The position numbers and the translations under genes were made by a program. Below are positions 1 through 3,527 of a stretch of 27,801 nucleotides of DNA, piece by piece. How positions within the stretch are numbered: position 1 is the stretch's first letter; each line of letters opens with the position of its first letter. The DNA is from a virus: positions 1 through 27,801 of IMG/VR virus record IMGVR_UViG_3300030106_004873, one strand, 5' to 3'. The notes under the pieces are model-generated. The model saw only the letters and a program-made list of their open reading frames with translations, searched no databases and was not told the origin of the DNA.

Positions 1-871
1 CTTTTGTTTTTTCGGTACGTGGGTAGTCTAGCCTCAATTTGTCAAAAGCTTTGGCAATCTGGCGTGATGCCCAGATGTCTACTTCTATTCCTGATTCTTT
101 TTTTATGGCCTTTAGTAGTTCTTGTTCTTGGTTCTTCATTTCTTTTTGTAATGCTTCAGCTTTTTCCACTTGTACTCTCACACCTCGCTGACGCATCTTT
201 ATTAATATCGGAAGCAGTTGCTGCTCCATCTCCCAAACAGTAGTTAAACTTTGTGTTGCAATTTCTTGTTTAAATCTTTGCCAAAGTTTTAATGTCAACT
301 CCGCATCTTGTTCTGCATAGTATCCAACATGTTCTGCTGGCAATTTCCACATCTCAGCTTTAGGATCTATACCGTGAGCGGCTGCAGCTTCTCTAAGTTC
401 TGTCTCTGCTTTTATTTCATTCAAGTAATCGACTGATAAAGCGTTTAGAGAATATGAAAACCTATTCTCATCTATTAATGCTGCCGCTATCATTGTATCT
501 ACAATAGGTCCGTGAACCGGGATACCAGATGCTTCTAACCAACCTACATCATATTGAGCATTGTGAAATATTTTAGTGCATGGAAGAGCACATATGTCTT
601 TCATATATTTTTTTACTTGTTCAGGTATCATGTTACCACCACCAAGATGGCCAAAGGGAAAATACCCTTTCCAACCTTCAACGGCTACTGCAAAACCTAC
701 AATCTCTCCCTTACCTAAAGCCCAACCAGCTCCAAGTTTTTCATTAATACCATCATCTCTGGTTTCTAAGTCAATTGCTATTTCTTTATATTGAGATAAA
801 TCTTTATATTCTATCGGTGTATTCCACATTGATTTTTTAAAAGTTAACGTCAGTTGTAGTCCATTACTCAT
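1..871 (-). CDS. polA: DNA polymerase I (family A), N-terminal 290 residues with 3'-5' exonuclease domain; runs off the window
   Basis: Replicative DNA polymerase of phage family A type; only the proofreading exonuclease and the start of the linker to the polymerase domain are visible. Exo I is IAIDLETRDDG (D34, E36), Exo II is HNAQYD (H103, N104, Y107, D108) and Exo III is YYAEQDAELT (Y185, D189). The segment from about residue 215 (MEQQLLPILIKMRQRGV) is the conserved helix that follows the exonuclease in this family. No 5'-3' exonuclease domain precedes it, as in T7-like polymerases. The ATG at 871 overlaps the TGA of the upstream 2OG gene (ATGA), so translation is probably coupled. The frame stays open to base 1, so the polymerase domain lies outside. 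Exonuclease assignment is secure; family A rests on the motif spacing and linker helix. Confidence 0.93.
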   Translation of the reverse strand, partial: MSNGLQLTLTFKKSMWNTPIEYKDLSQYKEIAIDLETRDDGINEKLGAGWALGKGEIVGFAVAVEGWKGYFPFGHLGGGNMIPEQVKKYMKDICALPCTKIFHNAQYDVGWLEASGIPVHGPIVDTMIAAALIDENRFSYSLNALSVDYLNEIKAETELREAAAAHGIDPKAEMWKLPAEHVGYYAEQDAELTLKLWQRFKQEIATQSLTTVWEMEQQLLPILIKMRQRGVRVQVEKAEALQKEMKNQEQELLKAIKKESGIEVDIWASRQIAKAFDKLRLDYPRTEKTK

Positions 872-1482
872 TTTAAATTCTCTTCCTGATACTTCATATT
901 TGAGTTGTCAAAAGCAAAATTACCAGAAATAGTAATTCTATAATCATCACTAGAATAAAATGGATATACCATATGATTTAAATGAGATCTAAAAAGCAGC
1001 CCTCTCTTCTCCCAAGTTTTATCAGTAGGTAGAGCTATCTTTTCTATATGACTTTGCTGATTCTCTCCTAAAAAGAAAAACTGTAAATGACCTGCTAAAT
1101 TATGTTTTGCATTTTTTCCAGGAGATCTTCTTAACTCGTCCCCCATAATAAAAGGTATCTTCATAAATATAATAAAACTAAATACACCATCATGGTCATG
1201 AATAGGATTGAACTCATATTTTTTTTGGAAGTTAACCCATAATGAAGCAATTTTCAAATCAAGTGGGTATGGATTCAATACTTTAAAATTAAACTTTTCA
1301 GTAAATTTACTAAGCTTGATTTGGTTAAGTAAAAAATCTTCAATCAAATTTTTACTTTCATAAATACTATATTCTTCTCTTATGTTTCCAGCTAAATTTT
1401 TATTCCACGGAGTAGTTTTATTATTAATAGAATTATTTAATTTATTATAAATTTCATCTGATATAGTAAAACCGTGTATCAT
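868..1482 (-). CDS. 2OG-Fe(II) oxygenase-like protein (204 aa)
   Basis: Putative Fe(II)/2-oxoglutarate-dependent dioxygenase of the double-stranded beta-helix type common in marine phages. The proximal metal site is FNPIHDHDG (H95/H97, D98 adjacent), inside the typical strand WVNFQKKYEFNPIHDHDGVF. The distal part is LNHMVYPFYSSDDYRITISG, giving H170 as third metal ligand and R182 as the 2OG-binding arginine. The substrate is unknown. In this family it may be a protein side chain, a nucleotide or a small metabolite. It sits just upstream of the DNA polymerase (4-base overlap) and starts at an ATG sharing one base with the stop of a small lipoprotein frame (TAATG). The metal-site pattern is HxH rather than classic HxD, so activity should not be assumed. 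Confidence 0.72.
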   Translation of the reverse strand: MIHGFTISDEIYNKLNNSINNKTTPWNKNLAGNIREEYSIYESKNLIEDFLLNQIKLSKFTEKFNFKVLNPYPLDLKIASLWVNFQKKYEFNPIHDHDGVFSFIIFMKIPFIMGDELRRSPGKNAKHNLAGHLQFFFLGENQQSHIEKIALPTDKTWEKRGLLFRSHLNHMVYPFYSSDDYRITISGNFAFDNSNMKYQEENLK

Positions 1483-1607
1483 TAATTATTATCCATTTTT
1501 ATTATAGTTCTCATTACTGTTGTTGCTGGATTGAGGTCGAAATCTTTTGCGCAACCTGATAAAGATGTCAACATAACAAGAGCCACAATAATAAATTTTG
1601 TTTTCAT
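1482..1607 (-). CDS. Small putative lipoprotein (41 aa), overlapping a zinc-ribbon frame
   Basis: A 41-codon frame beginning MKTKFIIVALVMLTSLSGC. It has a positively charged n-region, a hydrophobic core (residues 5-15) and a lipobox LSGC with Cys19 as the lipidation site, followed by a short polar tail (AKDFDLNPATTVM and on) ending in DNN. This predicts an exported, membrane-anchored peptide of about 23 residues after processing. Phages use such lipoproteins as spanin components or superinfection-exclusion factors, but nothing here identifies the role. Its TAA shares one base with the ATG of the downstream oxygenase (TAATG). No convincing Shine-Dalgarno lies before its ATG. It occupies the same bases as the zinc-ribbon frame 1489-1659 in another frame, so one of the two may be fortuitous. 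Confidence 0.5.
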   Translation of the reverse strand: MKTKFIIVALVMLTSLSGCAKDFDLNPATTVMRTIIKMDNN

Positions 1608-1659
1608 AAATAACTGCATCATTATTACATTCTGAACATTTATGTTTTCTTATTATCAT
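1489..1659 (-). CDS. Small CxxC-CxxC zinc-ribbon protein (56 aa), overlapping a lipoprotein frame
   Basis: A 56-codon frame starting MIIRKHKCSECNND, with a second knuckle YYCGSCYVD. Cysteines 8, 11, 25 and 28 form two CxxC pairs 13 residues apart, the spacing of a minimal zinc ribbon. The tail is basic (RLRKRFRPQ) and then Asn/Ser-rich. Small zinc ribbons of this type are common phage early proteins, often thought to bind nucleic acid or a host protein; the function here is unknown. The ATG overlaps the end of the DUF3310 gene by 20 bases, and the stop lies 6 bases before the next ATG. The SD is weak (ACAGAAA before ATG). It shares 119 bases with the lipoprotein frame; the four well-spaced cysteines make it at least as credible as that frame. 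Confidence 0.55.
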   Translation of the reverse strand: MIIRKHKCSECNNDAVIYENKIYYCGSCYVDIFIRLRKRFRPQSSNNSNENYNKNG

Positions 1660-1894
1660 TTTCTGTAAGGTGTTGTATTTCTAAATCACAGTAATGTTTG
1701 ATTTTTTTAATGTCTTCAATTGATTTACCTTTTAATAGATACCTGCATACATATTTAATTACGTTTGCTTGAAAAGGATTAAGACCATTTTTTCTTATAA
1801 ATGTCCAAGGTTGAATAATAAATTTTTTATAATGTGAGCCTCCTACTTGAACACCGTCTGGAAAAGTTTCGTCAAACATATTTTTATTTGTCAT
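1640..1894 (-). CDS. DUF3310 family protein (84 aa)
   Basis: Small phage early protein of the DUF3310 type, recognised from the order VGGSHYKKFIIQP, then NVIKYVCRYLLKG, then EDIKKIKHY. The family is widespread in phages and, as I recall, forms part of T7 gp1.7, a nucleotide kinase; no kinase motif is visible here, so a role in nucleotide metabolism is only suggested. I chose the ATG at 1894 because GGAG lies 5 bases before it (GCAGGAGAAAAATG). A start at 1909 would add MCRRK but has no better ribosome site. The gene overlaps the end of the upstream helicase by 11 bases, and its own end is overlapped by the zinc-ribbon frame. Confidence 0.85.
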   Translation of the reverse strand: MTNKNMFDETFPDGVQVGGSHYKKFIIQPWTFIRKNGLNPFQANVIKYVCRYLLKGKSIEDIKKIKHYCDLEIQHLTENDNKKT

Positions 1895-3527
1895 TTTTCT
1901 CCTGCACATAAATTAAATAATCTTGTCCAATAGGATAATTAAACTTATAACTAGATCTCAGCAAATGTAAAGTTTTTCTTGCTCTAGTTGCACCAGTATA
2001 CCAAACCTTTCTTTCATCACTTTTATCACTCTTATTTTTGTTTTCATAATCTGATGGGTAATTACCTTTACCATACAGCACTACATGATTCGCTTCTCCA
2101 CCTTTAACTGAGTGTATTGTATCTATAGTTATAAGAGGATCTTTATCTAATTCTTTTTGACCATATCTTCTAAGTAATCTTATGAAGTGCCTTACTTGTC
2201 TAGGTTTAAAATTTCTTCTTAATATCCAAAACCAAGGTTTAGTTTTTTGACTATCTTCTAAAGCAAGACCACACCACTCTTTTAAATCTTGAAAATTGTA
2301 TTCTTTAAAATCAGGTTGTGCCCTCCAAAATTTATCTAATCTATAAGCAGGATCTTCTAGCTCTCTTATATGTTTATACATGTTACGAGCTGCCTTCTTA
2401 TCTATTTTTTTACCTTTAGTAATAGCAGTCCATGCTTTAATTGACTCCCACTGTTTTTGGTCAAAACACTTAGTTCCCTTATTATCTTTGTAATATAAAC
2501 CTGCATCTTTAGCCAACATCCTTAGTTCATTAACAGTTTCATTTATACGTCCTAGGATATACCAATCTTCTTTAAATTTTTCGAATGGTATTTCTTTGAA
2601 AGATAAATAGGCTTTTACATATCCATCTTTACCACCGGGTAAATATTCTTTCTCCTCACTATCATTGATACCTCGTCTAATTATTTGTGAGAAGCTATGT
2701 ATGGCCTCTCCAAATCTTCTTGTTTTTCTTAATTTTACTTTTCGACCAGGAAAAAATTTTGTGAAATATTTTGGGTCAGCACCATTCCATTTGTATATTG
2801 CCTGATCATCATCTCCTGCTAAGTAAATTCTTTTTACTTTAGGAGCCATCTTATAAATTACTGACCATTGTAATGGAGTACAATCTTGTGCTTCATCTAG
2901 TATTAAAACTTTTAACGATGGGAATGTAACTTCTTTGATAGCTCTTTCTATCATATCATCAAAATCAATAAACGATCTTTCTCCGCCACCAGTCTTATAA
3001 TGTTCATAAGTGCTTATCTTTCTTAAAAATACAGTAAGTGAATCTCTCTTATAACTTTCTTGTTTGTATGCTTCCTCTGGAGATATTAATAAATTTCTTG
3101 CTTTACTATAAACACCAAGAGACCAATCCTTATACATAAAATTATCATCTGCTAATCTCTTATCACTTCTTTTAATTACTTTAGTCTGTAGTGCAAAATC
3201 AATCGTGCAATCTTTTGGATCAAATACTTCTTCTGGAAAATATCTCCTACAATAAGTATGTAAAGTTTTAAATCTAGAAAAGTCATCAGTGTTGTATTGA
3301 GGAAAAGATTCTAATGCTCTAGACACTGCAGTATTGACTGCTTTGTTTGTAAAAGATAAATATGCAATCTCGTTTGGCCTTATATTCTTTCTTAAATAAC
3401 CTTTTAAAACTTTTTCAATCAAAGTATATGTTTTACCTGTACCAGGTGGACCAAAGATTTTTATTGTTTTGTGATAAAGCTCCTTTAGTATTTTAAGTTC
3501 TAAACTTTCCTGTGTGGAATTCGTCAT
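1884..3527 (-). CDS. SF1 DNA helicase, UvrD/PcrA-like (547 aa)
   Basis: ATP-dependent DNA helicase/translocase of superfamily 1A. Motif I is GPPGTGKT (26-33), motif Ia is AYLSFTNKA (about 55-63), motif II is DEAQD (211-215) and motif III is LAGDDDQAIYKWNGA (about 236-250). Motif V is THE segment TIDTIHSVKGGEANHV (about 470-485), and motif VI is YTGATRARKTLHL (about 510-522). The length is shorter than cellular UvrD (about 720 aa), mainly through reduced 1B/2B insertions. It probably unwinds DNA in phage replication or recombination beside the primase and polymerase. The ATG at 3527 has a GGAG four bases upstream within the end of the primase gene (35-base overlap), indicating coupled translation. 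Confidence in fold and motifs is high; the exact role in the fork is inferred. Confidence 0.94.
   Translation of the reverse strand: MTNSTQESLELKILKELYHKTIKIFGPPGTGKTYTLIEKVLKGYLRKNIRPNEIAYLSFTNKAVNTAVSRALESFPQYNTDDFSRFKTLHTYCRRYFPEEVFDPKDCTIDFALQTKVIKRSDKRLADDNFMYKDWSLGVYSKARNLLISPEEAYKQESYKRDSLTVFLRKISTYEHYKTGGGERSFIDFDDMIERAIKEVTFPSLKVLILDEAQDCTPLQWSVIYKMAPKVKRIYLAGDDDQAIYKWNGADPKYFTKFFPGRKVKLRKTRRFGEAIHSFSQIIRRGINDSEEKEYLPGGKDGYVKAYLSFKEIPFEKFKEDWYILGRINETVNELRMLAKDAGLYYKDNKGTKCFDQKQWESIKAWTAITKGKKIDKKAARNMYKHIRELEDPAYRLDKFWRAQPDFKEYNFQDLKEWCGLALEDSQKTKPWFWILRRNFKPRQVRHFIRLLRRYGQKELDKDPLITIDTIHSVKGGEANHVVLYGKGNYPSDYENKNKSDKSDERKVWYTGATRARKTLHLLRSSYKFNYPIGQDYLIYVQEKNDK

Follow-up and report, generated by a model that had tools for sequence, protein, structure and literature searches.

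In the Rz/Rz1 pair of phage lambda, a lipoprotein gene lies wholly or mostly inside another gene, on the same strand and in a different frame (PMC6139136). Besides the o-spanins (PMC6139136), the small phage lipoproteins with known roles include the superinfection-exclusion factors T5 Llp, which targets an outer-membrane receptor from the periplasm (PMC9586334), and Rtp45, a protein of about 6 kDa that acts on LptD (PMC12685063).

We analyzed a 27.8-kb virus record from IMG/VR (IMGVR_UViG_3300030106_004873, the whole stretch being referred to as the window) in which a putative lipoprotein gene (LIP) shares most of its DNA with the gene of a zinc-ribbon-like protein (ZR). As in lambda Rz/Rz1, an out-of-frame lipoprotein gene is nested in another gene, but the host gene is zinc-ribbon-like instead of an i-spanin, the pair is located in the replication region, and LIP relatives occur mostly as free-standing genes. 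The usual explanation for overlapping genes in viruses is the de novo birth of one gene inside an old one. In the case of ZR/LIP each partner has relatives independent of the other and can disappear on its own, and two alleles of one locus reveal the joint nearly to the base; therefore the origin of the overlap is directly readable. The shared 119-131 bp very probably encode two functional proteins, with ZR codons recruited as the signal peptide of LIP.

The ZR/LIP locus and its two frames

The DNA of the window is 82% identical to Pelagibacter phage HTVC023P across DUF3310-helicase, and it contains both a ferrochelatase and a 2OG-oxygenase gene, a set that has been described for HTVC023P-type pelagiphages (PMC9599517). 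The phages with the overlap come from the ocean, and their hosts are probably SAR11 bacteria. LIP is absent from HTVC023P itself, which differs from the window by another small Cys-rich reading at the ZR/LIP place, an unannotated out-of-frame stretch (VCCECNQKAVFVEMKKLYCPKHYAKLKNIP, ~2828-3001 of L142) that overlaps gp06.

DUF3310, helicase, primase and polymerase genes surround ZR/LIP in the window. The upstream neighbour is the DUF3310 gene (1640..1909, minus strand; PF11753, E=3.4e-10), which overlaps the start of ZR by 20 nt (1640-1659), and the downstream neighbour is a 2OG-Fe(II) oxygenase gene (868..1482, minus strand; PF13759, 4.8e-6; phrog_81, 3.7e-24). In many relatives the DNA polymerase gene follows LIP directly, without an oxygenase in between; the oxygenase of the window is an optional insertion separating LIP and polymerase, and L063 has an additional 173-aa gene there. 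The loci nearest to the window (L062, L063, L065, L066 and L069) lack the whole ZR/LIP cassette; here DUF3310 is followed directly by the oxygenase, and a few N-terminal ZR codons remain as a scar, which indicates that the cassette is dispensable for the phage.

Both ORFs of the initial annotation were found again at the same positions on the minus strand. ZR (1489..1659) has 56 aa with cysteines at positions 8, 11, 25 and 28, as annotated, and shares 119 nt (1489-1607) with LIP, which is read in frame +1 of ZR. For LIP the annotated lipobox LSGC was retained, whereas the annotated length of 41 aa, counted from the ATG at 1607 (1482-1607), is probably too short: of the 45 distinct sequences with both frames, 44 have an ATG that matches 1619 (MQ...), and position 1607 is mostly TTG in relatives. 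LIP is therefore probably a 45-aa protein (1482..1619, minus strand; a further alternative start lies at 1622) and the overlap extends to 131 nt. The ZR codons for KIYYCGSCYVDIF are exactly those of the hydrophobic core KFIIVALVMLTSL of LIP in the +1 frame. The LIP stop overlaps the oxygenase ATG in the TAATG noted previously (1480..1484, minus strand), and in relatives LIP often overlaps the start of the next gene, so that translational coupling of the LIP stop to the oxygenase start may be assumed. Shine-Dalgarno-like sites are not obvious at the ZR/LIP overlap.

The LIP sequence has the layout of a lipoprotein with a charged n-region, a hydrophobic h-region and a lipobox of the type [LVI][ASTVI][GAS]C (MQLFMKTK-FIIVALVMLTS-LSGC), followed by the mature part CAKDFDLNPATTVMRTIIKMDNN. 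This layout is alike in overprinted and free-standing LIPs, apart from some departures from the consensus at positions -3 to -1 of the lipobox, and the Pfam family LPAM_1 matched only with E=0.022 in 5 of 16 members. LIP is thus probably a membrane lipoprotein, a more fitting description than the "exported peptide" of the initial annotation. In E. coli, lipoproteins whose residue after the Cys is not Asp go to the outer membrane. LIP would be exported, receive a lipid at its Cys and reside in the cell envelope, with the outer membrane as the probable site because its residue after the Cys is not Asp.

ZR shows two conserved CxxC pairs about 13 residues apart (CxxC-x13-CxxC), as in C4 zinc ribbons, and C8, C11, C25 and C28 are invariant in an alignment of 20 sequences. 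Because the AlphaFold2 model was poor (pLDDT 53), the assignment rests on these cysteines, from which a zinc-ribbon fold is predicted, and we use the term "zinc-ribbon-like". Pfam zinc-ribbon matches were weak (e.g., A2L_zn_ribbon, which matched 10 of the 20 members with an E of 0.004 at best), profile searches of the PDB gave only matches at chance level, mostly to ribosomal proteins, and a search of bacterial genomes did not find ZR. By inspection, ZR has a charged, polar tail and no membrane-spanning hydrophobic segment. Small C4 zinc ribbons of the pelagiphages HTVC010P, HTVC134P, Foussvirus and Sieqvirus have the same N-terminal core (e.g., HKCSKCKxxAVIIENKIYxC), but neither the LIP frame nor the tail of ZR. 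A different small C4 protein, ZR2 (...DYYCAECYIFxLGLPIK...), is located in tandem just before a free-standing LIP in L307 (1158-1331) and L331 (728-904), with no or minimal overlap, and a protein similar to ZR2 starts at 3705 in L113.

Selection on the two frames

A scan of IMG/VR for ZR yielded 61 loci and a scan with the LIP alignment 242 places, among them 45 distinct sequences with both frames (the window included) from several genomic contexts. The second Cys pair of ZR and the lipobox Cys are kept in all 45, and the +1 frame is conserved throughout; in L210 and L212 a CxC replaces the first CxxC. The ZR frame is without an ATG in L196, L210 and L212, as is the LIP frame in L022.

Three parts of the overlap can be distinguished on the minus strand: the shared core (1554..1619), in which the ZR codons, read in +1, specify the signal peptide of LIP as far as the residue preceding the lipobox Cys; the TGC codon of this Cys (1551..1553); and the tail (1489..1550), in which the mature part of LIP coincides with a C-terminal ZR tail that appears as its out-of-frame shadow. 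Dual-frame rates were obtained with an OLGenie-type count (PMC7531306) implemented in in-house code with Jukes-Cantor distances. With non-independent pairs and a bootstrap over codon columns only, dNN was 0.10, dSN 0.32 and dNS 0.31 in the shared core, corresponding to an omega of 0.32 (0.13-0.81) for ZR (dNN/dSN) and of 0.33 (0.19-0.51) for LIP (dNN/dNS), and the tail gave 1.8 (CI 0.64-6.5) for ZR and 0.40 (0.18-0.69) for LIP. These values show that purifying selection acts on both frames in the core, while in the tail only LIP is constrained.

A comparison with control genes supports this picture. Their dSN was 0.8-1.0 and the ratio dSN/dNS 14 in the helicase, 10.6 in the polymerase and 5.0 in the DUF3310 gene, versus 1.03 in the core. 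The dSN of the cassette is about threefold below the controls, but its dNN and dNS match or exceed theirs, and the cassette is therefore not merely less diverged. As the controls' own dNN/dNS of 0.6-0.7 is the baseline for judging the LIP omega, the reduced dSN is the stronger signal. Where residues are identical, the ZR overlap reaches a codon identity of 0.83-0.86, compared with 0.63-0.70 for the flanking genes, even though the ZR protein evolves faster.

The lipobox Cys gives further evidence. The ZR codon over its TG is NTG in all 45 dual sequences (30 GTG, 10 TTG, 3 ATG and 2 CTG), and in these phages only 12% of the Val codons are GTG and about 12% of the Leu codons are TTG or CTG. In sequences with ZR only, the position of the Cys reads as Tyr in the +1 translation (RRYIKDL). 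When ZR was recoded with synonymous codons according to the phages' own codon usage (16 representatives less than 85% identical), the +1 frame stayed open in about 4% of the recodings; for an open frame that also contained a [GSA]C lipobox the figure fell to about 0.05% per sequence (both geometric means).

Relatives of LIP, independent losses and the origin of the overlap

Judged by its sequence, LIP is a new family of small phage lipoproteins (GCxKDYDLNPxTTxxR, mature part ~20-25 aa) without a Pfam or PHROG family, and neither database gave a match above chance. We counted 71 distinct DNA sequences of free-standing LIPs versus 42 of overprinted ones. The profiles of both sets match over the lipobox and the mature part only (hhalign 99.1%, E 5.8e-19). 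Free-standing copies precede the DNA polymerase gene or an exonuclease-like gene, lie next to a VRR-NUC-like gene or occupy other places, and they often overlap the start of a DNA-metabolism gene; what we take to be exonuclease-like and VRR-NUC-like neighbours was named by reading of the sequence, without profile hits. In a second polymerase clade the free-standing LIP is the common state.

Losses of single frames occurred in both directions. L031 and L053, which contain only ZR, are nested in the polymerase tree as sister to the dual locus L060 (100/98); in these two loci the hydrophobic run and IKDL are still present in the LIP frame, but the Cys is gone and a stop has appeared. Conversely, L175 has kept LIP with a broken ZR and is sister to the dual locus L007 (100/87), and LIP is also kept with a broken ZR in L218 and L188. 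The N-terminal half of ZR is lost in L218 and L357, and in L011 and L033 stops shorten the ZR tail with LIP left intact. The initial annotation had regarded a frame broken beside a conserved one as evidence against overprinting. Such cases do exist in a few nested lineages, but as they run in both directions they indicate that each frame is useful independently and not a coincidence. At about position 2524 of L198 the two frames are joined by a shift (ENKIYYNETLVMLMSLSGC); we set this chimeric frame aside, as it may be due either to a frameshift or to an assembly error.

The joint itself is visible in a comparison of the overprinted L438 with the free-standing L411 and L404, which have homologous genes on both sides. 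It lies exactly at the Cys codon: upstream, in the part that corresponds to the shared core, DNA identity is 31-36/75 (41-48%) and no similarity is detectable just before the codon, in contrast to 68-69/75 (91-92%) downstream. The L411/L404 type carries an ordinary signal peptide at the place where L438 has the ZR core, and we read the pair as an allelic exchange of the signal peptide with the mature part kept. In addition, L052 begins like the overprinted form and ends like the free-standing LIPs of the second clade (..NDSST), a mosaic that suggests recombination within LIP.

We propose that a free-standing LIP gene was joined at the lipobox Cys to an upstream ZR gene in another frame. The +1 reading of the ZR core, which happens to have Lys/Arg in its first part and a hydrophobic run after it, would have become the signal peptide of LIP, and the DNA of the mature part, read in the ZR frame, an unconstrained ZR tail as a by-product. 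ZR would be translated from its own start, LIP from the internal ATG at 1619 inside ZR, and the LIP stop would be coupled to the start of the next gene. Recruitment seems easy, since the +1 frame of ZRs without LIP already reads [KR]xKYIxVLxVI. The L438/L411 alleles alone do not show which form came first, and we infer the direction of the joining. In more general terms, we consider it fairly probable that a class of phage zinc ribbons contains a ready-made +1 start codon and signal peptide, that these came into use when an existing mature lipoprotein domain was joined at the Cys codon, making the metal-binding core an export signal, and that both versions now exchange as alleles. The ZR/LIP overlap suggests that signal peptides, being tolerant in sequence, can be borrowed from the alternative frame of another gene.

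Two other histories have to be weighed. The reverse order, in which LIP arose de novo within ZR and then escaped to other phages as a free-standing gene, is rather unlikely: most free-standing LIPs have unrelated signal peptides, their contexts are more numerous and more distant (polymerase, exonuclease-like, VRR-NUC-like and structural genes, nrdA in HTVC105P), and they prevail in the second polymerase clade. Escape as such does happen, as the copies that outlived ZR in L175, L188 and L218 still have the ZR-derived signal peptide. The initial annotation had also considered that one of the two frames may not be a gene but a coincidence, here of AT-rich composition and close relatedness, and had named homologous loci, dual-frame rates and independent homologues as checks. 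Part of the resemblance is indeed forced by ZR, whose +1 frame is hydrophobic even in the LIP-less L265, L273 and HTVC010P. However, the lipobox Cys depends on an NTG codon that is rare for Val and Leu and nevertheless invariant, low divergence is not the cause of the threefold lower dSN, and both peptides have homologues that do not overlap the other; a coincidence is thus extremely improbable and the overlap is best described as true overprinting.

Possible function of LIP

Homology searches in Pfam and PHROG gave no function for LIP. From its class as a small phage lipoprotein and its position, we tentatively propose that LIP might act on a surface receptor at an early stage of infection, by altering or blocking it, and so serve superinfection exclusion. 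T5 Llp, Cor and Rtp45 are likewise very small phage lipoproteins, but the mature part of LIP is clearly shorter and no receptor-binding protein is encoded beside it; a sequence family shared with these proteins beyond chance was not found (Cor PHROG, E=0.088).

The nested out-of-frame arrangement is that of lambda (PMC6139136), and chance-level matches to Rz-like PHROGs were obtained (E 0.036-0.063), which would be in line with LIP as an outer-membrane spanin of the Rz1 type, encoded within its partner. We rejected this role and regard it as quite improbable: the short ZR has no transmembrane or coiled-coil part and makes an unsuitable i-spanin, LIP is located among replication instead of lysis genes, with free-standing copies beside polymerase and nuclease-like genes, and the tiny mature part of ~20-25 aa has no proline-rich region. 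Very improbable, too, is a LIP frame that merely serves as a leader or coupling ORF, or as an RNA element, for translation of the next gene, its peptide being functionless. Overlaps between the end of LIP and the next start are frequent (offsets -1 to -17), as expected for such an element, but the amino acids GCxKDYDLNPxTT are conserved across different downstream genes and contexts, and the copies in L338 and L340 have no coupled long downstream ORF.

LIP defines an unannotated lipoprotein family of marine phages, probably of SAR11. A tblastn search with overprinted LIP gave no match in cultured phages, but the cultured HTVC105P contains an unannotated ORF (MGKYLIILILLTGCSHINDKVNPTTTLLKQIIKETNK, L381 2492-2605) between nrdA and gp27 that is probably a divergent LIP; its tblastn match is weak (E 0.4) and it was recognised by the lipobox and NPTTTLLKQIIK. 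This member makes the function of LIP testable. A search of bacterial genomes for LIP returned a single match, a LIP-like ORF (L302, 1129-1248) on a short contig binned in a Flavobacteriaceae MAG, which is possibly a misbinned phage contig.
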